A stretch of 64,000 nt of DNA, taken from assembly GCF_011089885.1 (NCBI RefSeq), contig NZ_JAANBD010000029.1, forward strand, positions 186,001-250,000, read 5' to 3'. The DNA comes from Thioalkalivibrio sp. XN279 (lineage in GTDB: Bacteria > Pseudomonadota > Gammaproteobacteria > Steroidobacterales > XN24). A program made the translations under genes and the position numbers. Under the pieces are notes generated by a model. The model worked only from the letters and a program-made list of their open reading frames with translations. It did no database searches and was not told the origin of the DNA. Below are positions 11,722 to 35,867 of the stretch, piece by piece. Positions within the stretch are counted from its first letter, which is position 1; each line of letters starts with the position of its first letter.

Positions 11722-12156
11722 ATGCGTAAGGTACAGAAGGGTTTCACTCTTATCGAACTGATGATCGTGGTTGCGATCATCGGCATCCTGGCGGCGATTG
11801 CTATTCCCGCCTATCAGGACTACACAATTCGCGCGAAGGTCACTGAAGGCCTCAACACGGTGGCTGTTGCTCGTACAGCTGTGGCGGAGTACTGGAATAC
11901 GACCGGCATCTTCCCGACCAGCCAGTCAGCGGCGGGGCTGGGCACCAACACCGACTACGCAACCAATATCATTAAGCAGGTTGACGTGGACGGAAGCGTG
12001 ATTGACGTCCAGTTCAAGGCAATCGGCGGCGACGTTGATGACGGTGACTTGATCCGCTTCACGGCTACCCCCACCAGCCCCGGCAGCACGCTTGAGTGGG
12101 ATTGCGCGACCGGCAGCACGCTGCCCGCGAAGTACCGCCCGGCCAACTGTCGCTAA
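11722..12156 (+). CDS. pilA: Type IVa major pilin PilA
   Basis: The structural subunit of the type IV pilus, 144 residues. A short class-IVa leader (MRKVQKG) is followed by the prepilin peptidase site G7|F8 with Glu at mature position 5 and Phe as the N-methylated residue ([20 protein letters not shown]). The C-terminal disulfide loop is formed by the two Cys in [19 protein letters not shown] good Shine-Dalgarno (AAGGGAGA) precedes the ATG. The gene is monocistronic: sigma-54 promoter upstream and a strong terminator downstream. Confidence 0.97.
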
Positions 12157-12336: not shown

Positions 12337-14058
12337 ATGGCAGCCACCGCACAACCCAGACTGACCGGACTACCACGACGCCTCGTCCAGGAAGGGGTGA
12401 TCAACGAGTCCATCGCGCTCGAAGCGGAAGCCGAAGCTCAGAGATCGGCTAAGTCGTCGGTGGTGTCCTATCTGGTCGAAAAGAATCTCGCCGACCCACG
12501 CGAAATTGCGACTGCTGCGTGCCATGAGTTCGGTGTGCCTGTGCTTGATCTCGATGCTATCGAGGTCGACCTCGAAACGGCCCGACTGGTCGACGAAAAA
12601 CTAATGCATCGTCATCGCGTGCTACCCCTTTTCCGTCGGGGAAGGCGCGTGTTTCTCGGTGTCTCTGATCCGACCCGGCTCCAGGCGATCGACGAGATCA
12701 AGTTCGCGACGGGCATGAGTATCGAAGCCATCGTTGTGGAGGACAACAAGCTCGACGCGATGCTGGCGCGAATGTCCGAGGCACTCGACACGACACTCGA
12801 GGGCTTGGGTGGGGAAGACATCGACCTGGAGAATCTCGAACTCGGCGGCGAGCAGGAAGATTCTGGCCAGGACGTCACGCGAGACGAGATTGACGATGCG
12901 CCGATTGTGCGTTTCGTTAACAAGGTTCTGCTCGACGCCATCCACAAGGGGGCGTCGGATATTCACTTCGAACCCTACGAGAAATTCTACCGGGTGCGCA
13001 CTCGTCTGGATGGCGTGCTGAAAGAAGTCGCCAAGCCGCCCGTAACGCTTGCCAACAAGGTCACCGCGCGCATCAAAGTGATGTCCCGAATGGACATCGC
13101 CGAGCGTCGCATTCCCCAGGACGGTCGGATCAAGCTCAAGCTTTCGGCGAATCGCGCCATTGATTTTCGTGTCAACACGCTGCCGACTCTCTACGGTGAG
13201 AAGGTCGTGCTGCGTATTCTGGACCCGAGCCAGGCCAAACTCGGCATTGATGCGCTGGGATATGAAGACTTCCAGAAGCAGCTGTATCTCGACGCCTTGT
13301 CCAAGCCTTACGGGATGATCCTCGTAACAGGTCCGACCGGAAGCGGTAAGACGGTTTCACTCTATACCGGCCTTAACATTCTCAACACGATCGACCGAAA
13401 TATTTCCACTGCGGAGGACCCGGCGGAAATCAACTTGCCCGGCGTGAACCAGGTCAACGTCAACCCCAAGGTCGGCTTGACCTTCGCCTCGGCTCTGCGT
13501 GCATTCCTGCGCCAGGACCCGGACATCATCATGGTGGGTGAGATTCGCGATCTCGAGACAGCTGAGATCGCCATCAAGGCGGCGCAGACGGGCCATCTTG
13601 TGTTATCCACGCTGCATACCAACGATGCCCCCAAGACGTTGACACGCATGGTCGATATGGGTGTGGCACCCTATGCGATTGCTTCCTCTGTAAGCTTGAT
13701 CATCGCCCAGCGCTTGGCGCGTAAGCTCTGCGACAATTGCAAGGAACCTAAGGAAATACCCAAGGAAGCCTTGCTCCGCGAAGGGTTCACAGAGGCCGAA
13801 GTAGAGGAAGGCCTCACAATCTATGCGCCAGTCGGGTGCAGCAAGTGCAACGACGGTTACAAGGGCCGCACCGGCATCTTCCAGGTCATGCCCGTGTCGG
13901 AGACCATCGGCCGGATCATCATGGAAGGCGGAAATGCGATGCAGATCGCCACGCACGCCGAGAAAGAAGGCATGTGGGATCTAAGGCGAGCCGGGCTGGT
14001 AAAGGTCAAGAATGGCATCACGAGCCTCGAGGAAGTCAACCGAGTCACAATCGATTGA
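12337..14058 (+). CDS. pilB: Type IV pilus extension ATPase PilB
   Basis: The hexameric GspE/PilB secretion ATPase that powers pilus polymerisation. The 573-residue protein has an MshEN-type N-domain and a catalytic domain with Walker A GPTGSGKT (from residue 332), Walker B (DPDIIMVGEIRD) and a His box (TGHLVLSTLHTNDA). A zinc-binding tetracysteine (CDNC ... CSKC) occurs near residues 466-508. The ATG at 12337 yields the usual short N-terminus. The conserved Asp-box region (ASDIHFEPY) is intact. It is followed by pilC and pilD. Confidence 0.97.
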   Translation: MAATAQPRLTGLPRRLVQEGVINESIALEAEAEAQRSAKSSVVSYLVEKNLADPREIATAACHEFGVPVLDLDAIEVDLETARLVDEKLMHRHRVLPLFRRGRRVFLGVSDPTRLQAIDEIKFATGMSIEAIVVEDNKLDAMLARMSEALDTTLEGLGGEDIDLENLELGGEQEDSGQDVTRDEIDDAPIVRFVNKVLLDAIHKGASDIHFEPYEKFYRVRTRLDGVLKEVAKPPVTLANKVTARIKVMSRMDIAERRIPQDGRIKLKLSANRAIDFRVNTLPTLYGEKVVLRILDPSQAKLGIDALGYEDFQKQLYLDALSKPYGMILVTGPTGSGKTVSLYTGLNILNTIDRNISTAEDPAEINLPGVNQVNVNPKVGLTFASALRAFLRQDPDIIMVGEIRDLETAEIAIKAAQTGHLVLSTLHTNDAPKTLTRMVDMGVAPYAIASSVSLIIAQRLARKLCDNCKEPKEIPKEALLREGFTEAEVEEGLTIYAPVGCSKCNDGYKGRTGIFQVMPVSETIGRIIMEGGNAMQIATHAEKEGMWDLRRAGLVKVKNGITSLEEVNRVTID

Positions 14059-14105
14059 TCACCGTGCCCGAAACACCCTCAACGAATAGCGACGAGTGAC
14101 TAGCT

Positions 14106-15317
14106 ATGGCTGACGCTGCGAAACAATATCCCTTTTCCTGGCAGGGCAAGGACGCCAAAGGCACCCTGGTCAAGGGCACGCTCGTCGCTGTAAACGATGC
14201 AGCAGTGCGGGCGAGCTTGCGGCGACAGGGACTCGTACCTATCCAGATCCGACGCCAGAGCACGCTTTTCCAGAAGCGCTCAAAAATCACCAGTGAAGAC
14301 ATTGCCATCTTCAGCCGCCAGCTGGCAACGATGATGCAAGCCGGCATCCCTCTGGTCCAAGCGTTCGACATCGTAGCGAACGGACACGAGAACCCCGGGA
14401 TGCAAAAGCTACTTTCCGCCATTAAGGTGGATATCGAGAGTGGCACAACCCTGGCCGATGCGCTCGCGAAGCACCCGATCTATTTTGACGATCTCTTCGT
14501 GAACCTCGTCTCGGCGGGCGAACAGTCCGGTGCTCTGGAAACGTTGCTAGACAAGATCGCCATCTACAAGGAAAAAACTGAGGCCATCAAGAAGAAGATA
14601 AAGAAAGCACTAACCTACCCCACTGCCGTCCTGGTCGTGGCTTTTATCGTGACTGCGGTCCTGTTGGTATTCGTTATCCCGCAGTTCGAGAGTCTGTTCC
14701 AAGGTTTCGGTGCCGACCTGCCGGCGTTCACGCGCATGGTGATCGACGTATCGCTCTTCGTGCGGAGCAATGGCGTCTTTATTGTCATCGCACTCGTCGC
14801 CGCGGCGTCGGCATTCGGCTATTTCAAAAAACGCTCCCGCAAGTTCAACCATTTTCTCGATAAATTGATTCTTCGGGTTCCGGTCATCGGCGAGATCATC
14901 CGGAAGGCTGCGATCGCTCGATTCACTCGAACTTTGTCGACTATGTTCGCCGCCGGCGTGCCCCTGGTTGAAGCCCTTGAGTCGGTGGCCGGCGCGACCG
15001 GCAATATCGTCTATCAAGTTGCCACGCTGGAAATACGCACGGAAGTCGCCACTGGCACCCGCTTGCAGCGGGCCATGGAAGCTACGGAACTCTTTCCGAA
15101 CATGGTCATCCAGATGGTGGCAGTTGGTGAAGAGTCGGGCTCGCTGGATGAGATGTGCGGCAAGGTTGCAGACTTCTATGAGCGCGACGTTGACGATGCC
15201 GTGGACAATCTGTCCAGCCTGCTCGAGCCGATGATCATGGCCATCCTCGGCATCCTGGTCGGCGGCCTCGTGATCGCCATGTACCTGCCGATTTTCAAGC
15301 TCGGCGCAGTGGTCTGA
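14106..15317 (+). CDS. pilC: Type IV pilus inner membrane platform protein PilC
   Basis: A GspF/PilC-family polytopic protein that couples PilB to pilin assembly; 403 residues. Two repeated T2SSF domains of about 120 residues are seen (FSRQLATMMQAGIPLVQAFD and FTRTLSTMFAAGVPLVEALE). Membrane helices lie near residues 170-195, 220-240 and 375-395. It begins 47 bases after pilB in the same direction, and pilD follows after 28 bases. Confidence 0.97.
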   Translation: MADAAKQYPFSWQGKDAKGTLVKGTLVAVNDAAVRASLRRQGLVPIQIRRQSTLFQKRSKITSEDIAIFSRQLATMMQAGIPLVQAFDIVANGHENPGMQKLLSAIKVDIESGTTLADALAKHPIYFDDLFVNLVSAGEQSGALETLLDKIAIYKEKTEAIKKKIKKALTYPTAVLVVAFIVTAVLLVFVIPQFESLFQGFGADLPAFTRMVIDVSLFVRSNGVFIVIALVAAASAFGYFKKRSRKFNHFLDKLILRVPVIGEIIRKAAIARFTRTLSTMFAAGVPLVEALESVAGATGNIVYQVATLEIRTEVATGTRLQRAMEATELFPNMVIQMVAVGEESGSLDEMCGKVADFYERDVDDAVDNLSSLLEPMIMAILGILVGGLVIAMYLPIFKLGAVV

Positions 15318-15345
15318 TTCGAGTCGGAAACAGGACGGTTTTTGC

Positions 15346-16224
15346 GTGAGCACGCTCGCGGCTTTGCCGCCCGCCATGCTAGCGGCATTCGCGTTGCTAT
15401 TCGGCCTGCTGGTCGGCAGCTTCCTCAACGTCGTGATCCATCGGATTCCACTGATGATGCGGCGGGAGTGGCGTGAACAGTGCGTCGAGGAAATGGCGCA
15501 ACCGGCGTCTGACATCCCCGAGGGTCGGTTCAACATCGTGGTGCCGCGCTCCCGGTGCCCCAAGTGCGGTCATGGGATCACAGCCGGCGAGAATATCCCG
15601 GTCGTGAGCTGGCTGATGCTGCGCGGCAAGTGTTCGGGCTGTGGCACAAGGATCTCGGCCCGTTACCCCGCGGTCGAACTGCTGAGCGGACTCATGTTTG
15701 CTGCGACCGCCGTGCTGCTGCCCTGGCCGGCCCAGGCCCTGGCAGGGATCGCCCTGACCGGCGCGTTGATCGCGTTGAGTTTCATCGACATCGACGAGCA
15801 GCTGCTGCCGGACAACATCACGCTACCGCTGCTATGGGCCGGGCTGGCATTCAACCTGCTGGCCGGGGAACACGCCTTCGTCTCGCTGCAGGACGCCGTG
15901 GTCGGCGCGATCGCCGGTTACCTCTCGCTGTGGACGGTGTACTGGCTGTTCAAGCTCCTGACCGGCAAGGAGGGCATGGGCTACGGCGATTTCAAGCTGC
16001 TGGCGGCGTTGGGCGCATGGCTGGGATGGCAGATGCTGCCGCTGATCATCCTGCTGTCTGCGGTCGTCGGGGCCGTCATCGGCATCGCCATGATCGTGCT
16101 GCTGGGACGTGACAAGCAGGTTCCGATTCCCTTCGGGCCTTACCTCGCGGCGGCGGGCTGGATTGCACTGCTGTGGGGACCGCAGCTCGCGGCGGCCTGG
16201 CTCAACTACGCCGGGCTTCATTGA
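15346..16224 (+). CDS. pilD: Prepilin peptidase / N-methyltransferase PilD
   Basis: A bifunctional aspartyl protease that cleaves prepilin leaders and methylates the new N-terminus. The 292-residue polytopic protein has the zinc tetracysteine CPKC ... CSGC in the first cytoplasmic loop and the two catalytic Asp motifs (FIDIDEQLLPD and GYGDFKLL). It starts with GTG at 15346. Its stop at 16224 is one base from the GTG start of coaE, indicating co-transcription. Confidence 0.96.
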   Translation: MSTLAALPPAMLAAFALLFGLLVGSFLNVVIHRIPLMMRREWREQCVEEMAQPASDIPEGRFNIVVPRSRCPKCGHGITAGENIPVVSWLMLRGKCSGCGTRISARYPAVELLSGLMFAATAVLLPWPAQALAGIALTGALIALSFIDIDEQLLPDNITLPLLWAGLAFNLLAGEHAFVSLQDAVVGAIAGYLSLWTVYWLFKLLTGKEGMGYGDFKLLAALGAWLGWQMLPLIILLSAVVGAVIGIAMIVLLGRDKQVPIPFGPYLAAAGWIALLWGPQLAAAWLNYAGLH

Positions 16225-17947: not shown

Positions 17948-18931
17948 TCAGTTTTTGGGCCAGAGGCTCCGGATCGCAGCGATCCCCTGAGCGCCACGCG
18001 CCCATGCAGTCTCGAGATCCTCGGGGCCGAGGCCGCCTATCGCATAGACGGGCAGCGGCAGGTCGCGGACGAGTTCTTCGAAGCGCTGCCAGCCCATGCC
18101 GGGTTGGCCGGGGTGTGAGGGGGTTTCCAAGACATTGCCCAGGAACGCGTACGTGGCACCGAACTCAATAGCCCTCTCAAGCTCCTCGGCGTTGTGACAG
18201 GACGCACCGAGAAAAAGTTCGGGCTGCAGTAACCGCACGGAACTGTGCGTGAGGTATCGCACTGGTGCGTGGATACCCGCGACGACTTCACGAAGCCGCA
18301 AAAAAAGTGCAGGGGGTAGTGCATCGAGCGCGGACATCCATTCGACGGGGTCTCCGTGCAAAAGGAGCCTGGCGCCCGTCGCTTCCAACCTGCAGCAGGC
18401 CCCTGCGAGGAGTGCGAGCAGTGATCTAGTATCCGCGCCGGGACGTCGCAGGCAGATAAGGCCGCCAAGCAAATCCGCGCGCTCAAGCATATCAAGCAAC
18501 TTCGCATCACTGATCGCCACAGCCGGCGTTACAGCAATCGTGTCCGGAAGCCTGAGGGCGGTGGTGATCTGGGTGTCAGCTGGCAGCAATCCGATCTCTT
18601 GAAGGTCGGCCACACCGCACCATCTCAGCGCTTGGCCCTCCCGCGGCTCGATCTGTCCGCGCCAGCGACTTACGCGCCACACATCGAGGTCGACCTCGAA
18701 CTCAGCATATTGGTGCCTGTATCGGATCAGAGGGCGCGCCGAATCGACTTCAATGTTCAGCTCCTCGCGAAGCTCCCGCGCCAGGCTATCGAAGCGCAGT
18801 TCGTTAACTTCGAGTTTACCGCCCGGGAACTCCCAGAAGCCGGCCATCGCCTTGCCCCGGGGCCTCTGGGAAACGAGTACGCGCCCTCCAGCATCCATGA
18901 GGACCCCAGCAGTAACGTGGATTCTTTTCAA
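17948..18931 (-). CDS. MutT-type Nudix hydrolase fused to a thiamine-phosphate-synthase-like domain
   Basis: A two-domain protein of 327 residues. The N-terminal Nudix domain has an intact box GGKLEVNELRFDSLARELRE..EELNI (G-x5-E-x7-REUxEE) and resembles MutT, which removes 8-oxo-dGTP. The C-terminal part (about 150-327) has a TMP-synthase/TenI barrel pattern (HAPVRYLTHSS; FGATYAFLGNVLETPSHPG; YAIGGLGPEDL). Such fusions are known at the mutT locus of several gammaproteobacteria. The start is probably the TTG at 18931, giving LKRIHVTAGVL like other MutTs. The frame is open to an ATG at 19009 that overlaps the divergent gene. In E. coli mutT follows secA; here the glycan island intervenes. Confidence 0.88.
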   Translation of the reverse strand: MKRIHVTAGVLMDAGGRVLVSQRPRGKAMAGFWEFPGGKLEVNELRFDSLARELREELNIEVDSARPLIRYRHQYAEFEVDLDVWRVSRWRGQIEPREGQALRWCGVADLQEIGLLPADTQITTALRLPDTIAVTPAVAISDAKLLDMLERADLLGGLICLRRPGADTRSLLALLAGACCRLEATGARLLLHGDPVEWMSALDALPPALFLRLREVVAGIHAPVRYLTHSSVRLLQPELFLGASCHNAEELERAIEFGATYAFLGNVLETPSHPGQPGMGWQRFEELVRDLPLPVYAIGGLGPEDLETAWARGAQGIAAIRSLWPKN

Positions 18932-19007
18932 TGTCGCTGATTTCTCTAACTTTGGCCGTGTGCGAAGTGTATATTGTCGCCCGGAAACTGATTTACGCCG
19001 AGATAAC

Positions 19008-20978
19008 ATGCCTGCAAGTTCGGGCGGTTCACGCCGTTGTCATCTGCTCGCCGTAGCCATACTCCTTGCGGGACTGATCGTAGGCTGGCTTGCCTATGCG
19101 CCCGGACTCACGGGCGGCCTGATGTTCGACGATGAGGGCAGCCTGGGCGGCCTCGCGAACGTCAGCGACTGGGATAGCGCGATTCAGTTCATCTCCTCAG
19201 GTGTCGCAGGCCCCATCGGCCGACCGTTGGCGCTGGCCTCTTTTGTGCCGCAGGCCTACGCGTGGCCGGATTCGCCAGAAATCTTCCTGCAGACCAACAT
19301 CCTCATCCACCTGCTCAATGGCGTCCTGGTGACCTGGCTGCTCTATCTGATCGGCCGTGCACGCGGATCCGACGAACGGTGGGCCTCGTTGGCAGCAAGC
19401 GGTGCTGGTGTCATCTGGCTGTTGCTGCCCTTACTGGCATCGAGCTCACTGTTCATCGTCCAGCGCATGACGACACTGGCATCGATGTTCATGCTCGCGG
19501 GCGGCATTGGATACTTCTATGCGCGTCGGAACCTGGAGCACGCCCCGTACCTGGCACTTGCTGGGATGACCCTGGCGTTGGGTATCGGCATGGCGCTCGG
19601 GATGCTCAGCAAAGAGATTGGCGCATTGCTGGTCTTGTACGTTCTTGCCACCGAAGCCACGCTGCTTTCTCGTCCAAGCAATGTTCCCCGAGGCATATGG
19701 CGCAGCTGGTTTGCGCTGGTGCTCGTCGCGCCGCTGATACTGTTGCTGGGCTACCTCGCGATGCGCCTGCCGTATTCCGAGGGCCTAGTGCTGCGTCGAG
19801 ATTTCACGGGCTTTGAGAGACTCATAACCCAGGCGCAGATCCTATGGGAGTATCTGTACCTGGCGTTCATCCCGACAGCCAGCCAGCTAGGGCCGTTCCA
19901 CGACGACTATCCCGTTCAGAGATCGCTGTTAAATCTCCCGACATTGCTAGCCGTGGCGGGCTGGCTCGGGATCATCGGGGCGGCCTTTGTCTTCAGGAAA
20001 AAGGTGCCACTTTTCAGCTTTGCAGTGGCCTGGTACCTCGCGGGACATCTACTCGAGTCAACCACCGTGAGCCTTGAGCTGTATTACGAGCACCGCAACT
20101 ACCTGCCGCTCGTGGGCCCGGTCTTCGCTCTTGTCGCGTCTATGCAAGGCCTTAATAGACAGTGGCGGCGGCTCGCCGGCTTTGGTTTAGCAACCTACAC
20201 AGCGCTTTTAGCCGGCGTACTTGTCACTATCTCATCCCTTTGGGGAAACCCAGAGATGTCCGCGGAGGTTTGGCAGCTCTATCGCCCTAACTCTCTTAGG
20301 GCCAACCAGCACCTCGCCGCCCAGCTTGAGAACCAGTCTTTCGCCCCTGCGTCACGGCGGCTCTTGAACCGCTATCTAGAGGACAATCCGGAAGCTCACG
20401 GCGTCGCTTTACAGGTCTTGGGTATTTCGTGCCAGCTCGAGCCGGACTCAGATCATAAAGAGAGCATCAATCACCTGAAGCAAGCCCTACCAACAACCCG
20501 ATTCAATGCCACTGTCTGGTCAGCATTTAAGCAGATCACGTTCCTAGTGACTGAAGAGAAGTGCAGTAACATCAGTGATGAAGACGTTTACGCTCTCGGA
20601 GAGGCGATGCTTGCCAACCCGGCATTCGAGGTTGGCGCCATCCAGCACGTGATACATGTGGAACTCGGGCGGATCGCGTACAGACAGCGAGACTTTGCCC
20701 GAACAATGATGCATCTTGAGTCCGCCATAAAGGCATTTCAGAATCCCAGAACGCTTCGGATGGCAATTAGAATTCTCGTTGAGGCGGGCCGCACGGACTT
20801 AGCATGGGAGTTTCTTCGGGAGGCTAGACAGCAGAAACCCCCGCAGAATCCATTCCGTGCGATACAGTGGCGCATGGATCTGGATCAGATAGAAGAGGCA
20901 CTGTCCGCACTCGAATCAGAGCACGTCTTACAGCCGGACGGTACGCCGTCGACGCTACTCACGTTAGAGGAGCAATGA
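19008..20978 (+). CDS. TMTC-like GT-C membrane glycosyltransferase with TPR C-terminus
   Basis: A 656-residue protein with about 10-12 membrane helices (residues 13-480) and a helical, TPR-like soluble tail (about 490-656). After the first helix comes an acidic motif FDDE (40-43), the place of the catalytic acidic residues in GT-C enzymes. A segment GRPLALASFV ... NILIHLLNGVL resembles the RPL...N..LH signature of TMTC O-mannosyltransferases, and EHRNYLPLVGP is a further conserved loop. The next gene (Dpm1-like) overlaps its stop and could supply the polyprenyl-phosphate sugar. It lies close to the pilus genes. Protein, perhaps pilin, O-glycosylation is inference; glycan modification is an alternative. 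Confidence 0.65.
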   Translation: MPASSGGSRRCHLLAVAILLAGLIVGWLAYAPGLTGGLMFDDEGSLGGLANVSDWDSAIQFISSGVAGPIGRPLALASFVPQAYAWPDSPEIFLQTNILIHLLNGVLVTWLLYLIGRARGSDERWASLAASGAGVIWLLLPLLASSSLFIVQRMTTLASMFMLAGGIGYFYARRNLEHAPYLALAGMTLALGIGMALGMLSKEIGALLVLYVLATEATLLSRPSNVPRGIWRSWFALVLVAPLILLLGYLAMRLPYSEGLVLRRDFTGFERLITQAQILWEYLYLAFIPTASQLGPFHDDYPVQRSLLNLPTLLAVAGWLGIIGAAFVFRKKVPLFSFAVAWYLAGHLLESTTVSLELYYEHRNYLPLVGPVFALVASMQGLNRQWRRLAGFGLATYTALLAGVLVTISSLWGNPEMSAEVWQLYRPNSLRANQHLAAQLENQSFAPASRRLLNRYLEDNPEAHGVALQVLGISCQLEPDSDHKESINHLKQALPTTRFNATVWSAFKQITFLVTEEKCSNISDEDVYALGEAMLANPAFEVGAIQHVIHVELGRIAYRQRDFARTMMHLESAIKAFQNPRTLRMAIRILVEAGRTDLAWEFLREARQQKPPQNPFRAIQWRMDLDQIEEALSALESEHVLQPDGTPSTLLTLEEQ

Positions 20979-21856
20979 TGCATCTGAAAGCTGTATCTGT
21001 TGTAATACCAGCTAAGAATGAAGGTGAAACCATTGGCGGGGTCGTACAACGACTTAAGCGAGCCCTTCCTGATGTCCAGATACTTGTTGTCGATGACGGC
21101 TCCACGGACGAGACAAGACAAAAGGCAGAACAGGTCGGAGCCGAGGTCGTCAGGAATCCGTATAGCCTAGGTAACGGTGGCGCTATCAAGACCGGGGCGC
21201 GTGCTGCTTCCGGCGAAATACTCGTATTCATGGATGCTGATGGTCAGCACGACGCCGAGCAAATTCCCCGGCTGTTAGAAGAGATCGATGCAGGCTACGA
21301 CATGGCCGTGGGCGCACGAACCCACGCCTCGCAAGCAAGCCACGGTCGGAAATGGGCCAATCGCTTCTACAACCGGCTCGCAAGCTACATGACGGGACAG
21401 CCCATCCCCGACCTCACTTCTGGACTGCGTGCTGTCCGCGCGAGCAAATTCCGGGAGTTTCTCTATCTCTTGCCCAACGGTTTCTCTTATCCGACAACCA
21501 TCACGATGGCGTTCTTCAGGGCGGGCTATCCGGTTGCGTATGTGCCGTTTACGGCGGGGCGAAGAGAAGGCCGGAGCCATATCAATCCGCTCAAGGATGG
21601 TCTTAGGTTTCTCCTGATCATCTTCAAGATCGGGACACTTTACTCGCCGCTTAAGCTTTTTGTCCCTATCGCCTTGTTACACGGCGCCCTGGGCCTCAGC
21701 TACTACGCCTACACATACACGACGGCATCCCGGCTGTCGGTTGCCACAGTTTTCATGCTGACGGCTGCCGTCACAATCTTCCTGATCGGATTGGTCTCCG
21801 AGCAAATTACCGCACTTATGTACAAAGATTCTGGAGACAAACGGACAGGACCATGA
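20975..21856 (+). CDS. Dpm1-like polyprenyl-phosphate glycosyltransferase (GT2)
   Basis: A 293-residue family 2 glycosyltransferase. The GT-A domain has VVIPAKNEGETI, VVDDGSTDET and the metal-binding DADGQHD. It ends with two predicted membrane helices (about 223-245 and 255-278), as in bacterial dolichol-phosphate-mannose-synthase-like enzymes, which charge undecaprenyl phosphate with one sugar. Two adjacent ATGs (20975 and 20978) overlap the stop of the GT-C gene. The second has better spacing from the GAGGAG Shine-Dalgarno. The tight coupling suggests it makes the donor for the GT-C enzyme. The sugar is unknown. Confidence 0.82.
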   Translation: MMHLKAVSVVIPAKNEGETIGGVVQRLKRALPDVQILVVDDGSTDETRQKAEQVGAEVVRNPYSLGNGGAIKTGARAASGEILVFMDADGQHDAEQIPRLLEEIDAGYDMAVGARTHASQASHGRKWANRFYNRLASYMTGQPIPDLTSGLRAVRASKFREFLYLLPNGFSYPTTITMAFFRAGYPVAYVPFTAGRREGRSHINPLKDGLRFLLIIFKIGTLYSPLKLFVPIALLHGALGLSYYAYTYTTASRLSVATVFMLTAAVTIFLIGLVSEQITALMYKDSGDKRTGP

Positions 21857-21969
21857 AAGATCGCTCAGCGCTTTCTATTCTTGGATCGCCATTACAAGTA
21901 GCCCCACACTAAATTCCCATATTTCGTTGAACGCAGCACAAGCTCTGCGAAAGCTCAATCTGTTTAGGT

Positions 21970-22839
21970 TCAAATCCTCTGCTGCCCCGTGACAATTTCA
22001 CGAACCCCGCGGAGCCAGAAGCTAATTTGCGCGTATATGTGTTTTACCGGGATCAATAGGCCGATCACCATTCGGATCACTGGCTCATCGGTGTAGCGAA
22101 GGTAGTACCTGTAATAGCGGAGCGGATGAACCCGGTACACGATCTTGCGCCAACCCTTCCAAGGACTGGAGTAACTGGCGCCACAGTTCTGGTCGTGCAA
22201 GCGATACCTTAGATGCGTCAGAGGGATTGTTCGCAACGCGCCGACTTGCAATAGCGCATATACGAATATGGCATCGGGGTAGTAATCGAGCAACAAGATA
22301 TCTTGTTTAACTTTTAGCAGCTTCTCGCGATTAAACAGGCTGTAAGTGTAATGGCTACGGTAGTTGTTCTCATTTCCGAGGAAGCATCTTATGAAATCCC
22401 TATGCCGAAATGCAGGGAGCCGCTTCTCTACTATGGTTGCGTCACCTCGGACCAAAAACAGAGCCCCGCGAACTCCCGCGTCATCCACGGTAATGTGCTT
22501 TGTCAACAACTCTAGCCAAGTACTGTCCCAGACATCATCGTGAGAAGCCCACATAAACATCTCGCCGCGCGATTGATGCAGGACGAATAAGAAATTCCTG
22601 CCGATACCAATGTTGGTTTCCTGACGAAAATAGCGAATCCGCGGATCGCTCCGCTCGTAACCCCGCACGATCTCTGCGGTAGCGTCGGTCGAGGCGTTAT
22701 CGGAGATGATCAGTTCGAAGTCGCCGAATGTCTGGCCTAATAGCGAGTCTAGCGCCTCGTGCAAGTACCTTTCACCATTGAATACGGGTAGGCCAATAGA
22801 CACCTTCGGAGGCTTGTTAGTTGGGAGACTGTCAATCAT
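21970..22839 (-). CDS. Family 2 glycosyltransferase
   Basis: A 289-residue cytoplasmic GT-A enzyme: VSIGLPVFNGERYL at the N-terminus, the nucleotide-binding ISDNASTD, and WASHDDVWD in the DXD position. It probably adds a sugar to the lipid-linked glycan built by this cluster. The ATG at 22839 is preferred to an upstream TTG at 22875. It is the last gene of the leftward rfbF-rfbG cluster, separated from the flippase by about 220 bp. Confidence 0.85.
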   Translation of the reverse strand: MIDSLPTNKPPKVSIGLPVFNGERYLHEALDSLLGQTFGDFELIISDNASTDATAEIVRGYERSDPRIRYFRQETNIGIGRNFLFVLHQSRGEMFMWASHDDVWDSTWLELLTKHITVDDAGVRGALFLVRGDATIVEKRLPAFRHRDFIRCFLGNENNYRSHYTYSLFNREKLLKVKQDILLLDYYPDAIFVYALLQVGALRTIPLTHLRYRLHDQNCGASYSSPWKGWRKIVYRVHPLRYYRYYLRYTDEPVIRMVIGLLIPVKHIYAQISFWLRGVREIVTGQQRI

Positions 22840-23060
22840 GTAGCCTGCTTCGAGTGGCGTTGCGTTTTCTCGCAAAGTTACAGTTTACGAACATTGTCCT
22901 AGCCAAATACTTAGGCAAATCTCGCTTGTTGCCCCGGCAGGTGCCGCTTGCGGTTGATCGTGATGACAATTGCTAACATGAGCTCTCCCAGTAAAACAAC
23001 AGTTCATAAGCAGGGTTTCCATCGGTTTTGACGTTGGTCTACTCATCGAGAGTGCCGTTT

Positions 23061-24563
23061 TTAAGGCGAACGCGGTTGAAGCTTCGACCGCTGAACGATT
23101 TGCTCTCGAACATAGGCCGCAGAAAATGCGGCCGCTGCGAATGCAGCTCCGCCAGAAAACGAAAGTGTCACAACAACCATCAAAGCGCTCTCCGGGCTTG
23201 GAAGCAAACCCTTGATCAACATCGCTGCGGCAAGGGCCCCGGCAATAGGCATGACAATATCGTTCACGTACCAACGCCGCTTCTCTCGCACAAGAATTTG
23301 TCGATACATGAAGTGGACGCCAACCAGGACATAGCCGGCGTTAAGCGTAACCCAAGCCCAAGCCGCACCTTCAGGTCCATATCTTGCCGTAGCCCATAGA
23401 ATGGCCGGAACCACCAATAGCACCGCGACGAGGTTTATCCGGACCGCCAGGCTTGTCCAGCCATGCGCGAGCTGCGTCTGGTAGGGGATCCACATCAGCC
23501 CATTCAACAGGTTTCCAAGAGCAAGTAGACTCAGCAGAGGAGCCACACGAACTGCGAGTTTCGGATCTTGCGTCCAGAGTCGCAGTATAGGCTCAGCGAA
23601 CAGGATCAGGATGATCGCTGCACTACCCGCGGTGACCGAGACTAACTGGGCCGCTTGATGATAGGCCTTGACCAACCCGACTTGGTCATCACGGGCATGG
23701 AGCTCGCAGAGCCTCGGGTACCAGGCTTGCGCGATGGGCCCGACGAGCATGTAGAGCCCAGCCGCCACCAATGCGGCGACGGTGTAGTAGCCGTACTCGC
23801 TGAGAGAAAGCAGCCTGGATAGAAGAATCTTATCGATCTGAGTGAGAAGGAGCGCGAGAAAGGTGACGCCCAGCATACCCCCGGCGAAATGCCGGATACC
23901 GCGCAGCGCGTCGAGCGAAAATCGGCCATCGCGCCCCCCGCGTGGCAGCGTTGTGTAGGTCGCCCAAGCGAGCGCGGCAAGGGTTGCGATGGAAATCACG
24001 CCTTGCCAGATGAAGAAGGCCTGTATGGTCGGCGAAACCCACGCGAGGACGCCGACTGCCCCGAAGCCGCGCACCGTGGCCATCGCACTGTTGACGACGT
24101 TGAAAAGCACCTGCCGCTGCAGTCCCATGATGCTACTGCGGTAAACGTTTTCCACGAGCCGCAACGCTGTGACCAAGCCCATGATTGCAATGGCCTGTGC
24201 AACGACCGGGACTGGCAGGGATTCAACGCGGAGCCACGCGCTTGCGATCCGCTCCGCCGCAAGGAACGTGGCAGCGGAAATCGCAATAGCTACGCCAATT
24301 GCGATGATCTCCACACTACGCAAGACGTCGCGAATTGACTCGCCGGTATGCGCCCCGCCGGTAAACCGGGCCATTTCTCGGTTGAGCGTCGGGGTCAAGC
24401 CCAAGTCCAGCAGGCTCAACCACGCCACCAGAATGGCAAACAGCCCGATCAGGCCAAATGCCTCAATCCCCAAGAACTTAATATACAGGGGAATGAAGGC
24501 TACCCCCATCAGGGCTGCCCACCCTTGCCCCACGTAGTTAGCGATCAGATTGCGCTTGAGCAT
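23061..24563 (-). CDS. Wzx-type polysaccharide flippase (MATE/MOP superfamily)
   Basis: A 500-residue protein with about 12-14 hydrophobic helices. It starts MLKRNLIANYVGQGWAALMG, a common start of oligosaccharide flippases (PST family). It would translocate the undecaprenyl-linked glycan across the inner membrane. Helices are spread evenly from residue 10 to 480, with short basic loops. It sits between a glycosyltransferase and a methyltransferase in the cluster. No polymerase (Wzy) was recognised nearby. Confidence 0.88.
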   Translation of the reverse strand: MLKRNLIANYVGQGWAALMGVAFIPLYIKFLGIEAFGLIGLFAILVAWLSLLDLGLTPTLNREMARFTGGAHTGESIRDVLRSVEIIAIGVAIAISAATFLAAERIASAWLRVESLPVPVVAQAIAIMGLVTALRLVENVYRSSIMGLQRQVLFNVVNSAMATVRGFGAVGVLAWVSPTIQAFFIWQGVISIATLAALAWATYTTLPRGGRDGRFSLDALRGIRHFAGGMLGVTFLALLLTQIDKILLSRLLSLSEYGYYTVAALVAAGLYMLVGPIAQAWYPRLCELHARDDQVGLVKAYHQAAQLVSVTAGSAAIILILFAEPILRLWTQDPKLAVRVAPLLSLLALGNLLNGLMWIPYQTQLAHGWTSLAVRINLVAVLLVVPAILWATARYGPEGAAWAWVTLNAGYVLVGVHFMYRQILVREKRRWYVNDIVMPIAGALAAAMLIKGLLPSPESALMVVVTLSFSGGAAFAAAAFSAAYVREQIVQRSKLQPRSP

Positions 24564-24599
24564 GGTTAGCGTCGTCAGTACGCCGCGTACCGCACCGGC

Positions 24600-25406
24600 T
24601 CAACGCACCCGTTTCAAGTATCCGTCTGGTGCCACGGTAATCAGCAGCTTGTTCTGGATATCTTTGTCGACCTGAAACTCAGGATGGCTCTTGAGGAACT
24701 CCCAGACAGCCGTCTTGGGATTATCCCCGGGACCCCAAGGACGATCGGGAAACATGTATGCCGGTAGGTTCTCGATAATAGTGTCGAAAACCACAAGGTA
24801 GCTACCAGGGGTTACTAGCGACGCATAAGCATCAAGCTCGCCGAGAACGTGTTCGTAGGTATGATTGCTGTCGAGACAAACCAGCACACACTCGAAGCCT
24901 TCGGCCATGGAATGAATCCGCTTGACGATAACTGAGTCTATGGATGAACCCTCGATCATATTGATGCGATTCGATAACGGATGCGCCTCAATTGCTGCAC
25001 GGTTATGGGCGCGAATGTCAATGTCGACACCGAGCACGTGGCGACGAGGTTGCCTGGGATCCATCGCAACCCCGTTTTCCAAAGCGTCGCAATAATCAAG
25101 CAATGCCAGCATCGAGGCGCTGAAGATCAGCGAGCCACCGTGCGCGATACCGGTTTCGATGATTAGGTCCGGCTTGATTTGCCAGATCAGTTCCTGGAGC
25201 GCCACGATGTCCTGAGGATATTGGATGACGGGGCGCCCGCACCAGAAAAAGTTGTAGGAGTATTTTGGCCGGGTCGATGCGAGCATGAAATTGTGGGCGG
25301 CCTCCACCAATTCTGGGTTACTCGCGTTAGCGGAGAGTCGATCGATCACCTCTTGTTCGAACTTTGTCACAGTCGTCACCGCCACACTATTAGATTTACT
25401 TGGCAC
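24600..25406 (-). CDS. CmcI/cephalosporin hydroxylase-family methyltransferase
   Basis: A 268-residue protein of the CmcI family, a SAM-dependent Rossmann methyltransferase group often found in polysaccharide clusters and in rhamnosyl O-methylation. Recognisable parts are YNFFWCGRPVIQYPQDI, IIETGIAHGGSLIFSASML (SAM loop), VLGVDIDIRAHNR and VCLDSNHTYEHVL. It starts with GTG at 25406 without a clear Shine-Dalgarno. Within this cluster it may O-methylate the finished sugar; the acceptor is unknown. Confidence 0.82.
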   Translation of the reverse strand: MPSKSNSVAVTTVTKFEQEVIDRLSANASNPELVEAAHNFMLASTRPKYSYNFFWCGRPVIQYPQDIVALQELIWQIKPDLIIETGIAHGGSLIFSASMLALLDYCDALENGVAMDPRQPRRHVLGVDIDIRAHNRAAIEAHPLSNRINMIEGSSIDSVIVKRIHSMAEGFECVLVCLDSNHTYEHVLGELDAYASLVTPGSYLVVFDTIIENLPAYMFPDRPWGPGDNPKTAVWEFLKSHPEFQVDKDIQNKLLITVAPDGYLKRVR

Positions 25407-25540
25407 ATTGTCAGTTTCTCAGATGGATTTCGGATCTATTGTTCCATCAGCTCGCCATCAGCGGAACACACGGTTATCAGAAGAGCGCACGATCAACATC
25501 GGTTTCCGGCATGTGGGAGAATTCTGACCGCCCCCTTTTT

Positions 25541-26362
25541 TCAAGGCTCGCGAACACCTACCACGCGCGGCGGATCGAAAAGGTTGTCTTGCCGCGCGCC
25601 AAACTGCAAAAGATCCCGCCGCCCAAATTCGTCCGCGATCTCCTCGGCCAACTGCCGCACCGTAACCGGCACTCCGGAACAGATGTTGATTGGCCCCTGA
25701 CGGTGACCAAGAGCTGCTTCCGCGATCAGCTCGCCGGCCTCCCGGACATCGAGAAAATCGCGAATCTGTGTTCCGCTAGTCAACTCCGCCGGCTCACCGG
25801 CGCTTAGTTGCCGGCGGAGGTACGGAACAAGACGACGCGGATCCTCGCCCTCCCCATAAAGGTAGAACAAACGACACCAGGCAAAGTGCACACCCAATGA
25901 TGGCAGCAACTGGCTCAGCACGAGAAACGCAGACGCCTTGCAGGCTGCGTAAAGGCTTTGTGGCTTGAGCGGGGTGTCGGTGGTCACCGTGCCAACATCT
26001 AGATCGTACTCAAAACAGGTGCCAACACCTACGAATCTGCGAACGCCGGCCTGGATACTAGCGTGGGCCAAATCGATGGTGCCCTTAAGACACGTCACGT
26101 TTTGGTCCGAATCAAGATACTTGCCTGGTTCCGTATACCATGCCAAGTGAATCACCGTATCCACTCCATCCAAGACCGATTTCCACCAAGATGGCTTTGC
26201 CTGGAAAAGGTCAGGTGTTTCTATAACGTGGACACCGTGTTCCAAAGGGATTGAGGTTGATGACCCGTTACGCAGGACCAATCTCAAGGGATGTCGTTTC
26301 TTGGCAAGGCTGCGGACGACCTGACGACCAACGAACCCGTCGCCACCGGTAACCAGGATCAT
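25541..26362 (-). CDS. NAD-dependent epimerase/dehydratase (extended SDR), probable 4-ketoreductase
   Basis: A 273-residue extended SDR protein with a Rossmann motif TGGDGFVG, and the catalytic Tyr/Lys in YAACK (about 134-138). It lies directly downstream of the C-methyltransferase (17-bp gap), where related sugar pathways place the reductase that turns the 4-keto group into a hydroxyl. The reaction on CDP-linked substrate is inference from the neighbours. Confidence 0.8.
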   Translation of the reverse strand: MILVTGGDGFVGRQVVRSLAKKRHPLRLVLRNGSSTSIPLEHGVHVIETPDLFQAKPSWWKSVLDGVDTVIHLAWYTEPGKYLDSDQNVTCLKGTIDLAHASIQAGVRRFVGVGTCFEYDLDVGTVTTDTPLKPQSLYAACKASAFLVLSQLLPSLGVHFAWCRLFYLYGEGEDPRRLVPYLRRQLSAGEPAELTSGTQIRDFLDVREAGELIAEAALGHRQGPINICSGVPVTVRQLAEEIADEFGRRDLLQFGARQDNLFDPPRVVGVREP

Positions 26363-26378
26363 GTCTCGAGCGCCTCAG

Positions 26379-27602
26379 TCATATGGCACGCAGTGTTGGT
26401 ACGGCAGTCACAAACCGCGTGCCTCGCTCATCCAGTGCGACAAATTGGCTTCGGAGTTCGTCAGCTATGTTCCACGGCAGGATCAACAAGTCATCTGGTG
26501 GCTGATCGAGTAATGCCTGCGGAGATTTTATTGGGATATGACTGCCAGGCAGATAACGCCCCTGCTTGGATACGGCAGCATCGCAGACGAAGGGCAACAG
26601 GTCGGGCTTAATACCAGCGTAGTTCAACAGGGTGCTGCCTTTGGCAGCTGCGCCATAGCCCGCAACCTTTCGGCCAGTGCGCTTCTGTTCGATGAGGTAA
26701 GCCACAAGATCGTCCTTTACCTTGTCCGCACGGGGCTGGAACCTTTGGTAGACATTGAGGTCGCGGAGGCCGGCCCGCGATTCCGCGTCGAGGATCGCAC
26801 CCAACCTATCTGTTGTCTTCCGTTGATCTTCGGCATGAACCCCATAGACACGAAGGCTACCGCCGTGGGTGAGCAATTGCTCGACATCCCATATGCGCAA
26901 ACTGTGCACCGAGAAAATCCGCTGTACCGTATGGAGCGAGAGGTATGAGAAATGCTCGTGGTAGACAGTGTCGAACTGCGTGTGTTGGATCAGCCGCAGC
27001 AGGTGCGGAAATTCCAGGGTGATTGTCCCGCCGGGCTTTAGTGCCTGTCGGAGACCGACAGTGAAGTCGTTGATGTCCGGAACATGCGCGTAGACGTTGT
27101 TGCCGATGATAAGGTCGGCCTGTTGGCCTGCGTCTGCCAGGCGCTGGCCCAACGCGGCGCCGAAGAACTCACGTAGCACTGGGATGCCCTGTGCTTCCGC
27201 TTCCGCGGCTGTGCCGGCAGCCGGCTCAATCCCGAGACAGGGTATGCCGGCGACGACGAAGTTTTTGAGCAGGTAACCATCATTCGCCGCAACCTCGATG
27301 ACGAAGCTGGCAACATCAAGCCCTAGGCGCCTACGGATCATCTCCGTGTAGCGGGCCGCATGTGCCAACCATGTCGTTGATGTCGAGGAAAAGTACGCGT
27401 AGTCGGAGCGGAACAGCTCCTCGGGTTGAGCGTAGTCTTCTGTCTGGACAAGCCAGCAGTGATCGCAGACATAGAGCTTGAGCGGGTAATACAGCTCGGG
27501 GCTGTGGAGGTCTGCCTCGGTCAGGTAGGCGTTGGACGGCGGTGCAAAACCCAGGTCCAAGAAGACGTGTTGGAGTCGGGTGCAACAATGGCGGCAGTTC
27601 AC
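26379..27602 (-). CDS. Sugar C-methyltransferase (TylC3/TcaB9-like, three-domain)
   Basis: A 407-residue SAM-dependent methyltransferase with three parts. The N-terminal zinc-binding domain (Cys pairs CRHC ... CDHC, residues 3-60) is followed by a Rossmann SAM domain (IEVAANDGYLLKNF). The C-terminal domain contains YGAAAKGSTLLNY. The motif YHEHFSYLS carries the Tyr/His/Glu residues proposed as catalytic in nucleotide-sugar 3-C-methyltransferases such as TcaB9. It starts with GTG overlapping the stop of the RmlC-like gene (GTGA). With rfbF and rfbG upstream it predicts a 3-C-methyl-6-deoxy sugar. Confidence 0.85.
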   Translation of the reverse strand: MNCRHCCTRLQHVFLDLGFAPPSNAYLTEADLHSPELYYPLKLYVCDHCWLVQTEDYAQPEELFRSDYAYFSSTSTTWLAHAARYTEMIRRRLGLDVASFVIEVAANDGYLLKNFVVAGIPCLGIEPAAGTAAEAEAQGIPVLREFFGAALGQRLADAGQQADLIIGNNVYAHVPDINDFTVGLRQALKPGGTITLEFPHLLRLIQHTQFDTVYHEHFSYLSLHTVQRIFSVHSLRIWDVEQLLTHGGSLRVYGVHAEDQRKTTDRLGAILDAESRAGLRDLNVYQRFQPRADKVKDDLVAYLIEQKRTGRKVAGYGAAAKGSTLLNYAGIKPDLLPFVCDAAVSKQGRYLPGSHIPIKSPQALLDQPPDDLLILPWNIADELRSQFVALDERGTRFVTAVPTLRAI

Positions 27603-28162
27603 AATACGTCCACCCCCATAAAAAACTCATCCAGGAAGGGATGTGTCTGATCCCGATCGGACCGGTCTCCGACCGGCAGAGGCCAGGCTATACCGAGACG
27701 CGGGTCGAGGGCATTGAGCGCGCCTTCGGCGTCCGAGTGATAGGCGGCGGTGTGCAGATAGAAGACCTCGCAATCGTCGGCGAGCGTCTGGAAACCGTGC
27801 GCAAAGCCTTCGGGGATGACCAGAGTTCGTCGATTCGTGGCGCTCAGACGTTCTGCGTGCCAGCACAGGAAACTCGGCGATCGCCACCGGAGATCGACCG
27901 CGACATCGAACACCTCGCCCTTAACGCAGGTGACCAGCTTCATTTCGGCATGAGGCGGGTACTGGAAATGCATGCCCCGCACCGTCCCCGCCTTCACTGT
28001 GAGCGTGTGGTTGATTTGCTCAATACCTCTTCCTTTGAGCAGATCAGCCAGTTCTGCGCGGCAAAAGAGCCTGTCCAAACGGCCACGTTGGTCGCCGATT
28101 GGGTGGCGTGTCAGTAGGGAGAGCCCTGCCAACGGGGTATTGGCGAGAGTGAACCGTCTCAT
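27599..28162 (-). CDS. RmlC-like nucleotide-sugar 3,5-epimerase
   Basis: A 187-residue cupin of the dTDP-4-dehydrorhamnose 3,5-epimerase family. The catalytic His lies in VRGMHFQYPP, followed by the Lys segment EMKLVTCVKGEVFDVAVDLR and the Tyr region VFYLHTAAYH. In this context it probably acts on a CDP-4-keto-6-deoxyhexose to enable C-3 methylation, or epimerises C-3/C-5. The ATG at 28162 overlaps the rfbG stop (ATGA). The frame is open further upstream inside rfbG without similarity. Confidence 0.85.
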   Translation of the reverse strand: MRRFTLANTPLAGLSLLTRHPIGDQRGRLDRLFCRAELADLLKGRGIEQINHTLTVKAGTVRGMHFQYPPHAEMKLVTCVKGEVFDVAVDLRWRSPSFLCWHAERLSATNRRTLVIPEGFAHGFQTLADDCEVFYLHTAAYHSDAEGALNALDPRLGIAWPLPVGDRSDRDQTHPFLDEFFMGVDVL

Positions 28163-29226
28163 GGCGTGCCAACGAATGCAGCTATATCGGCCTCGGATAG
28201 TGTGAGGGCGCTCGCACCAGACGCTTGCTCTCGATACCACTGGAGCGTTCTAGTGACCGCCTGAGACAGGGACCAGCGGGGCTGCACGTCTAGTATGGTT
28301 CGGGCCTTTGTGATCTCCAGCGCAAGCCAGCCGGCTTCGTGAGGGCCATCGGCGCCGTCGCGGTAGTCTATGGCCCCGGCACCGTAGGCGGCGCGAGCCA
28401 GCTCGATCACCTCACGGACCGACACAGCCTCGTGAGGCAGCGGGCCAAAGTTGTAGGGCCCCGCAAGGGCCGGCTGATCCCACAGTCGTTCCGCCAACCG
28501 CAGGTAGGCACCAAGAGGTTCCAGCACGTGCTGCCAAGGCCGGGTTGCGGCGGGGTTCCGAACGAAGAGGGATCGCCCAGCGCTCCACGCTCTCACCGCA
28601 TCTGGAATCAGGCGATCCTCCGACCAGTCGCCGCCGCCAATGACGTTTCCGGCGCGCGCGGAGGCTACAGCAATACCCCGCTCGGCGAGAAAGGCATCAC
28701 GGTAACTCGCGATGACTAACTCAGAGGCGGCTTTGCTGGCACTGTAGGGATCGTGCCCGCCCAACGCGTCGGTTTCTCGATAAGGAAATGGATGTTCTAG
28801 GTTTTGGTAAACCTTGTCTGTGGTAATGGCAACAACAACGCGAAGATGCGGAAGTGGACGCAAGGCCTCGAGGAGATTGGCAGTGCCTTGAATGTTGGTA
28901 GAAAAAGTCCCAAGCGGATCCCGGTAACTGGCCCGCACTAGGGGCTGCGCAGCCAAATGAAACACGATTTCAGGATCGGCGGCCCCGATCCAGTACGCAA
29001 GCGCGTCCGCATCACGGATATCGATCTCGTGGCTTTCGAGGAGTAACGAGATATCAGCCAGCGTGAAAAGGTTTGGTTCAGAGGTTGGCGGCAGGGCAAT
29101 ACCCGTAACGCTCGCACCCAAGCGGTTGAGCCAAAGCGCGAGCCAGGAACCCTTGAAACCGGTGTGCCCGGTGAGGAGAACACGCTTGCCGCGCCAGAAG
29201 CGGGGCCGCGGGTTGACGTACCTCAA
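28159..29226 (-). CDS. rfbG: CDP-glucose 4,6-dehydratase
   Basis: Converts CDP-glucose to CDP-4-keto-6-deoxyglucose. It is an extended SDR enzyme of about 355 residues with [12 protein letters not shown], the ITTDKVYQN segment and the catalytic YSASK, all typical of RfbG. The start is most likely the TTG at 29226: it overlaps the rfbF stop (TTGA), has a GGAAGA Shine-Dalgarno seven bases upstream, and gives the family-like [11 protein letters not shown] second TTG at 29262 would give a 12-residue extension. Confidence 0.92.
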
Positions 29227-29996
29227 GACCAAATCTTCCAGGGTGCTGCGCCAGAGCTCCAAAGCTCTTCGAGCTGGTTTTTATCCCGCAGCGTGTCCAT
29301 CGGTTGCCAGAAACCTTGATGCTGAAAGGCCATCATCTGCCCCATGCGAGCCAGCTCGGCCAGAGGCTTCCCTTCCCAACTGCTGGTATCGCCATCGATG
29401 AGGTCGAGGCAGCGCGGTGAAAGCACAAAAAAACCACCATTGATAAGGCCGCCATCCCCTCGAGGTTTCTCTGTAAAGCCAGTGACCATATCGCCAGACC
29501 GATCGATGGCGCCGTAACGACCGGGAGGGCGAACCCCAGTTATGGTGGCCCAGTACCCATGGTCATGGTGATAGCGTATCAGCGCTGTGATATCGACATT
29601 GCTGAGACCGTCGCCGTAGGTGAAGCAGAAGGCATCCTCATCCCGGATGTAGTCAGAAACGCGCCGGAGGCGCCCACCGGTCATCGTATGCTCGCCGGTA
29701 TCCACCAAGGTGACCTTCCAAGGCTCAGCCTTGTGCTGGTGAACCTCCATGCTGTTATTAGACATGTCGAAGGTGACATCCGACATGTGCAGGAAATAGT
29801 TTGCGAAGTATTCCTTGATCAGGTAGCCCTTGTAGCCGCAACAGATCACGAACTCATTTACGCCATGGGCAGAGTACAGCTTTAGGATGTGCCACAGTAT
29901 TGGGCGACCGCCGATCTCAATCATCGGCTTGGGCTTCATGTGGGTCTCCTCGGAAATCCGGGTCCCTAGTCCACCCGCGAGGATAACAGCCTTCAT
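29223..29996 (-). CDS. rfbF: Glucose-1-phosphate cytidylyltransferase
   Basis: Makes CDP-glucose from CTP and glucose-1-phosphate, the first step of CDP-linked deoxysugar pathways. The 257-residue protein begins [20 protein letters not shown] and contains the characteristic [17 protein letters not shown] and [13 protein letters not shown]. It is the first gene of a leftward run in which rfbF, rfbG, the epimerase and the C-methyltransferase overlap by four bases at each junction. Confidence 0.95.
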
Positions 29997-30098
29997 GTTT
30001 GCTCTCGTTGGTACCGCGGCGCTGTGCTGGGCTTCAAACGCTTTGCCGCCTGATCCTCAATCGATCCGATGCCAAGCCCCAAGTGTTTTTTTTGATTA

Positions 30099-30125
30099 CT
30101 TATATTAATAACGAAGTATAAGCAA
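30099..30125 (-). promoter_or_regulatory. Candidate promoter of the rfbF operon
   Basis: Minus strand TTGCTT (30125-30120) and TATAAG (30104-30099) are separated by 15 bases, slightly short. They lie in the most A/T-rich stretch of the gap, about 100 bases before rfbF. Confidence 0.4.
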
Positions 30126-30440: not shown

Positions 30441-30473
30441 CATACGGTCCATGTCAGGTTGTCACGAAAGGAT

Positions 30474-32365: not shown

Positions 32366-32374
32366 TTTTATCGC

Positions 32375-35833: not shown

Positions 35834-35867
35834 CGATCCCGTGCCTCCCTGCCAGGGACTGTGCTTG

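Follow-up and report, generated by a model that had tools for sequence, protein, structure and literature searches.

Beside the type IV pilus genes of Thioalkalivibrio sp. XN279 lie two overlapping genes, here called P1 and P2, and the locus raises the question of whether they form a two-gene protein O-glycosylation system and whether pilin is its target, as a preliminary description of the sequence had suggested. Work on pilin glycosylation has centered on TfpO, PglL, PglS, and TfpM, together with the rare TfpW. The window analyzed here is a 64,000-nt stretch (C29:186001-250000) of the source genome (G000; 3.13 Mb, 99.9% complete).

Organization of the P1-P2 locus

Both open reading frames were confirmed and the pair lies within the pil region, with the following features.

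11722-12156 (+): pilA, major type IV pilin, proposed acceptor (Pfam Pilin 8.6e-17, N_methyl 9e-11)
12337-16224 (+): pilB, pilC, and pilD, type IV pilus assembly and prepilin peptidase, given as context (ORFs; orthologues)
17951-18931 (-): mutT, divergent NUDIX/thiamine-phosphate-synthase-like gene, left edge of a probably acquired block (Pfam, comparison with relatives)
19008-20978 (+): P1, predicted GT-C glycosyltransferase with a C-terminal TPR domain, 656 aa (ORF, conservation, model, fold match)
20975-21856 (+): P2, predicted GT2 polyprenyl-phosphate sugar synthase with two C-terminal TM helices (Pfam, model, fold match)
21970-35833 (-): glycan cluster with GT2, Wzx-like flippase, methyltransferases, NDP-sugar genes, GT4s, and acyltransferase (gene annotation)

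The genes upstream of P1 run in the order pilS, pilR, pilA, pilB, pilC, pilD, coaE, zapD, and divergent mutT, and pilA is not adjacent to P1 in the window but lies about 6.9 kb upstream of it. The pil loci of relatives contain orthologues of pilB, pilC, and pilD that are 52-90% identical. P1 ends with a TGA stop codon at 20976-20978, and P2 may start either at ATG 20975, which gives a 4-base ATGA overlap with P1, or at ATG 20978, which gives a 1-base overlap and a protein of 292 aa; the sequence GAGGAG precedes the possible starts at the ATGA junction. The overlapping two-gene arrangement adjoining pilus genes is therefore present at the coordinates first described. A scan for sigma-70-like promoters around P1-P2 found none.

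P1 is predicted to be a GT-C glycosyltransferase with a periplasmic TPR domain

The structure of P1 was predicted by AlphaFold2 with an alignment of 71 natural sequences, giving a mean pLDDT of 92.6 and a pTM of 0.92. The parts and conserved residues of the protein are as follows.

19008-20243 (+): residues 1-412, membrane domain with a GT-C fold and 11 predicted TM helices (model; VIA-align)
20244-20975 (+): predicted periplasmic TPR domain, residues 413-656 (model, relatives, fold match)
19128-19133 (+): D41-D42 of the first periplasmic loop, proposed as a catalytic/metal-binding pair (conservation; DD position of TMTC/ArnT/PMT, PMC7801869)
19611-19616 (+): K202-E203, third periplasmic loop (K202 in 71/71)
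20088-20102 (+): E361-H-R-N-Y365, last periplasmic loop, with Arg as proposed lipid-phosphate binder (71/71; compare the AERV Arg of TMTC, PMC7801869)
20430-20432 (C475 codon) and 20562-20564 (C519 codon) (+): C475, probable disulfide with C519 (covariation)

Comparison of residues ~4-440 with GT-C structures by VIA-align gave the highest score with yeast STT3 (Z 18.0, 337 residues, 5.0 A), followed by Pmt4 (Z 15.9), ALG12 (15.4), ArnT (14.8; 311 residues, 4.5 A), and Pmt1-Pmt2 (14.6), with lower matches to PglB (13.7), AftB (13.3), and AftD (13.2). A middling Z can arise from helical repeats, but the GT-C chains rank above unrelated ones and span the whole membrane domain of P1, with STT3, Pmt4, and ArnT matching over 311-347 residues. 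From residue ~425 on, P1 matches TPR superhelices. Plain Foldseek placed TPR chains first, and VIA-align was needed to reveal the GT-C match. When the model is read with the N-terminus inside, the 11 TM helices place the invariant polar residues of the loops and the TPR tail in the periplasm. The model thus predicts with high confidence that P1 is a GT-C glycosyltransferase whose 11 TM helices precede a TPR domain in the periplasm, and the structural comparison proposed in the preliminary description yields the GT-C fold at Z 14-18 to STT3, PMT, and ArnT.

The sequence features first used to assign P1 to GT-C (an FDDE loop, an RPL...N..LH signature, and a TPR tail) are all present, as FDDE at residues 40-43, GRPL at 71-74, TNILIH at 96-101, and the C-terminal tail, and the motifs are conserved across the 71 family members. 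D41, R72, N97, H101, Q152, R153, K202, R271, and E350 are invariant in 71/71 members including P1, as are all five residues of E361-H-R-N-Y365 (P1 numbering), and D42 is found in 70/71. Because these residues are invariant across the family, the motifs are conserved ones and not chance occurrences. P1 has both an acidic pair in the first periplasmic loop and an Arg in a later loop (R363, invariant in the 71 sequences), and K202 may correspond by position to K203 of ArnT and K219 of TMTC1 (PMC7801869). In the TPR domain, C475 and C519 occur together in 67 of the 71 sequences, are both missing from 4, and never occur singly. This strict covariation suggests a probable disulfide, which in turn supports a periplasmic site for the TPR tail.

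The TPR signal is weak in the P1 sequence alone and clear in the model and in relatives. Pfam and PDB sequence searches with P1 or its GT-C profile returned TPR only and nothing for the membrane domain, and a Pfam-A scan of 60 P1 relatives gave nothing consistent there. As judged by sequence searches, the membrane domain of P1 falls in no family named by Pfam.

P2 is predicted to be a polyprenyl-phosphate sugar synthase

P2 matches the Pfam GT2 family at 1.8e-35, and its model (pLDDT 91.8) matches ArnC (E 1.6e-19), GtrB, and dolichyl-phosphate mannose synthase (DPMS), with ArnC and GtrB nearest. Both Asp residues of the DxD motif (D86-x-D88) are invariant, and two C-terminal TM helices cover residues 224-250 and 255-283. 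In an NCBIfam scan no model reached its curated cut-off for P2; the PgfS model matches at 1e-15, with 57.8 bits against a cut-off of 500. P2 is therefore predicted to be a GT2 polyprenyl-phosphate sugar synthase of the ArnC/GtrB/DPMS-like kind. The same assignment had been made from the sequence, and structure prediction bears it out as a Dpm1/ArnC-type protein having the GT-A fold of GT2 with DxD.

The P1 family is linked to type IV pilin genes

A locus was counted as linked when a type IV pilin ORF lay no more than 1.2 kb upstream of P1 in the same orientation, and the sample comprised 72 P1-family loci with enough upstream sequence, ranked by similarity. A pilin lies directly upstream of P1 in 52 of these loci, compared with about 0.5 expected in total (0.0074 per locus, the pilin density elsewhere in the same loci). 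Because the 72 loci had been ranked by similarity, an even draw across the phylum was also checked, and here a pilin is directly upstream in 17/20 strong P1 matches with readable upstream sequence but in only 1/6 weak matches. The corresponding count in a draw from Pseudomonadaceae is 16/16. The preliminary description had proposed a survey of whether the pair co-occurs with pilA, and the outcome is strongly positive. Further relatives of P1 are found at other sites of the pil region: next to pilS, in the pilR-pilA interval, or in the coaE-zapD interval. A minority of the family lies outside pil regions, for example in oadB-P1-P2 loci.

No Ser/Thr is fully conserved in the globular part of the 54 linked pilins, and a single conserved Ser/Thr acceptor site kept throughout them was rejected. 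Only 6/54 linked pilins have a C-terminal Ser/Thr, unlike the substrates of TfpO and TfpM.

P1 and P2 co-occur across genomes

P2 (>45% identity) is found no more than 3.5 kb from P1 in 39 of the 72 loci, usually overlapping P1 or following it by 0-25 bp, and 22/72 loci have the pilin and lack a close P2. In Methylotuvimicrobium buryatense 5G (L073), a tractable laboratory methanotroph, P1 comes immediately after a pilin gene and P2 lies about 7 kb further downstream. Among 147 genomes of the order, a strong P1 match is present in 12 and P2 (E <1e-60) in 10; all 10 genomes with P2 are among the 12 with P1, and P2 is found in 0/135 of the others (Fisher 7e-14, a test that counts related genomes as separate despite their common history). 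P1 and P2 lie on different contigs in G026, G039, G073, and G116, and because the pair co-occurs even there, the bond between the two genes is more than adjacency.

The close relatives G001-G005 have neither P1 nor P2. Holders of the P1 family among Gamma- and Betaproteobacteria include Woeseia, Wenzhouxiangella, Methylomonas, Thauera, Acinetobacter, Halopseudomonas, Comamonas, Microbulbifer, Colwellia, and Dyella, and P1 is present in ~6% of an even draw of Pseudomonadota (about two dozen genomes at <1e-50 among 397). Some genomes carry several copies of P1, and unlinked copies exist. A locus search with the single P1 sequence found nothing, and a search with the P1 family alignment found relatives; a plasmid collection contained no match to P1-P2. 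A literature search returned no description of the pair or family, within a coverage that excludes the primary TfpW papers (the 2008 paper and a 2020 preprint).

P1-P2 head a variable glycan block

P1-P2 head a low-GC glycan block of ~17 kb that reaches to secA (~19000-35900; GC 0.51-0.61 vs 0.66-0.70 to its right). The block lies between mutT and secA and carries genes for CDP/NDP-sugars, Wzx, methyltransferase, and acyltransferase. mutT and secA are neighbors in the family relatives G003, G004, and G005. In the same genus, no glycan genes were recognized in the mutT-secA interval of G002, and that of G001, which lacks P1-P2, holds another insert with a Wzx-like flippase. Because this interval differs among close relatives, the 17 kb block, of which P1 is the first gene, is variable and was probably acquired. 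In G001 (L238:10089-13157), the Wzx-like flippase is accompanied by two proteins (439 and 581 aa) that have no Pfam match, and the insert is possibly another glycosylation cassette.

The adjoining cluster is a possible supplier or extender of the glycan. No GtrA-type flippase (PF04138) was found in the source genome (controls matched in 7 genomes), and its single Wzy_C protein is encoded elsewhere, on C28. Further along the window, a c-di-GMP-I riboswitch (39778-39879 (-); 49.9 bits vs a cut-off of 35) immediately precedes an M23-peptidase-like gene (38788-39702) that neighbors secA, an unusual target.

Relationship of P1 to TfpW

TfpW of Pseudomonas paraeruginosa Pa5196/PA7 is reportedly a GT-C pilin arabinosyltransferase, as described by Kus and colleagues in 2008. 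Glycosylation of pilin by TfpW is established (PMC11841053, PMC12369383), and the D-Araf that the enzyme uses comes from a pathway encoded at a distant locus (PMC12369383). The gene that immediately follows pilA in PA7, and is itself followed by a gene of tfpX size, is tfpW by the same account (PMC12369383). This TfpW matches the P1 GT-C profile at E 1e-14, and profile-profile comparison by hhalign gives 99.1% and E 1.2e-18 over 408 columns. The alignments indicate that P1 is homologous to TfpW over the GT-C domain, at the superfamily level only. TfpW is closer to unlinked bacterial GT-C-TPR proteins (E 1.4e-29, whole length including the tail) than to P1. Pfam sees no TPR in the tail of PA7 TfpW (L199:6834-8759 (-)); because TfpW aligns over its whole length with TPR-bearing GT-C proteins, it probably has a periplasmic TPR-like tail.

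In the tree, the TfpW clade has a support of 100/100 and does not contain P1, and P1 and its relatives form a separate clade with a support of 92/90; the deep branches are long. A third pilA-linked GT-C clade, distinct from TfpW and P1, occurs directly behind pilA in Pseudomonadaceae (L203:6635-8281, L204:6306-7931 with a clear TPR, L206:6628-8250, and L208:6397-8013). No ALO-domain protein (the DprE1-type oxidase of the D-Araf route) was found in the source genome (controls matched in 3 genomes), and D-Araf is therefore disfavored as the sugar of P1.

P1-P2 as a candidate pilin O-glycosylation module

We consider it likely that P1-P2 is a two-gene O-glycosylation module dedicated to type IV pilin. 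The GT-C fold, the catalytic-loop conservation, the topology, the Cys covariation, the fold and DxD of P2, the pilin linkage, and the P1-P2 co-occurrence were established computationally, and we infer the activity, sugar, acceptor residue, flippase, and TPR role. In the proposed mechanism, P2 would act at the cytoplasmic face, using a nucleotide sugar to charge undecaprenyl phosphate, and a flippase would turn the lipid-linked sugar to the periplasm. The Arg in the last periplasmic loop of P1 would bind this donor, with D41/D42 of the first loop and a metal ion as the catalytic center, and P1 would move the sugar to Ser/Thr hydroxyls of PilA still in its inner-membrane-anchored form, which the disulfide-stabilized periplasmic TPR domain would hold. 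The idea of two-gene O-glycosylation of pilin thus gains support from the fold of P1, the type of P2, and the pilin survey, with the chemistry and the target still conditional. Counted against it are the distance of 6.9 kb to pilA, the position of P1-P2 at the head of a polysaccharide cluster, the unlinked family members, the lack of a GtrA flippase and of a conserved acceptor site, and the 22/72 loci without a close P2.

That position in the low-GC block between mutT and secA would suit a pair that modifies surface polysaccharide or lipid A within the glycan cluster, as GtrB/GtrII or ArnC/ArnT do, and P2 is structurally nearest to ArnC and GtrB, with ArnT among the fold matches of P1. We regard this as quite unlikely, in that the constant neighbor across the family is a pilin gene and not a polysaccharide cluster, and a TPR tail like that of P1 is not known from ArnT or GtrII. 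P1 could also be a general periplasmic protein O-glycosyltransferase for which pilin is merely the most visible target. Eukaryotic PMT and TMTC enzymes of the GT-C fold act on many proteins, and this precedent, together with the unlinked P1 copies and the several copies in some genomes, speaks for broad specificity. General O-OTases of the PglL type are unlinked to their target genes, whereas pilin-specific ones are linked, with TfpO, TfpM, and PglS encoded beside their substrate (PMC12645811); the P1 family, linked to pilin genes, behaves like the latter, so that a general enzyme is unlikely.

Homology to PA7 TfpW and the same pilA linkage would fit a TfpW orthologue that adds D-arabinofuranose to pilin. 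This is very unlikely given the separate clades, the closer affinity of TfpW to unlinked GT-C-TPR proteins than to P1, the genome without the ALO-domain oxidase of the D-Araf route, and the possession by P1 of its own synthase P2, none being seen beside tfpW in PA7; simple orthology was rejected on the tree and the absent oxidase. The non-glycosylating TfpX and TfpY hold a pilin-accessory position (PMC11841053), the same that P1 would hold if it were catalytically dead or a pilus assembly accessory like TfpY, yet the strict conservation of every GT-C loop residue and the co-occurrence of P1 with a sugar-lipid synthase make this reading extremely unlikely.

For a pilin-dedicated P1-P2, we lean towards an unnamed, widespread GT-C lineage that is independent of TfpW, recognizes pilin through the TPR-disulfide domain, and has its own lipid-sugar synthase. 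If this is true, a single TMTC-like superfamily gave rise to pilin GT-C-TPR enzymes by three or more recruitments, which is a reading and not a proof because the deep branches of the tree are long. Such repeated recruitment would plausibly be driven by phage or host pressure on pili, and pilin glycosylation shields P. aeruginosa from pilus-targeting phages (PMC11841053). The P1 family points to a further class of pilin glycosylation, often with its own donor synthase. It would connect the orphan TfpW with TMTC-like enzymes, make the role of TPR in acceptor choice testable in simple bacteria, and add to the pilin-specific transferases that serve as glycoengineering tools.

Comparison with known systems

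TMTC1-4 are GT-C enzymes with 11 TM helices, a first-loop DD, a fifth-loop Arg, and far-side TPR repeats (PMC7801869), and P1 resembles them in its 11 TM helices, its loop residues, and the luminal or periplasmic TPR repeats that follow. However, TMTC proteins have a TMTC_DUF1736 segment (PF08409), for which Pfam-A returned no match, either with P1 or with sets of 20 and 60 family members, and P1 is therefore TMTC-like in plan and not a TMTC, the likeness being one of architecture and superfamily and not of direct sequence comparison. To that extent the first proposal of a TMTC-like enzyme holds; the nearest characterized relative is TfpW, which had not been named.

In the ArnC/ArnT and DPMS/PMT class, a lipid is charged in the cytoplasm, flipped, and used for transfer on the far side. 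P1-P2 would share with ArnC/ArnT, and with GtrB and its GT-C partner, a division of labor in which undecaprenyl phosphate is charged by a GT2 enzyme and the charged lipid then serves a GT-C enzyme in the periplasm. ArnT and GtrII differ in acting on lipid A or O antigen, whereas P1-P2 is pilin-linked, and to our knowledge a TPR tail is not a feature of either. PgfS/PgfM of Streptococcus mutans (PMC5856776) and bacterial Ppm1/PMT also combine a GT2 synthase with a PMT-like GT-C enzyme for protein O-glycosylation, but they occur in other bacterial groups, act on other acceptors, and lack the pilin linkage. TfpO, TfpM, PglS, and PglL share the proposed role of P1, periplasmic O-glycosylation of pilins or pilin-like proteins; they differ in having O-antigen-ligase/WaaL-type domains and in transferring lipid-linked oligosaccharides, and no Pfam match to an O-antigen ligase (Wzy_C/WaaL) domain was found in P1.

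TfpW is like P1 in being a GT-C enzyme and in its motif plan of DD, RP, SKE, and H-E-R (E-H-R in P1). Its place directly beside pilA is matched in 52/72 loci of the P1 family, P1 of the window lying in the pil region but 6.9 kb from pilA. It is unlike P1 in sitting with TfpX, whereas P1 pairs with its own GT2 synthase. We conclude that P1-P2 would act like a TfpW joined to an ArnC-type synthase, belonging to the TfpW superfamily and not to the TfpW clade.
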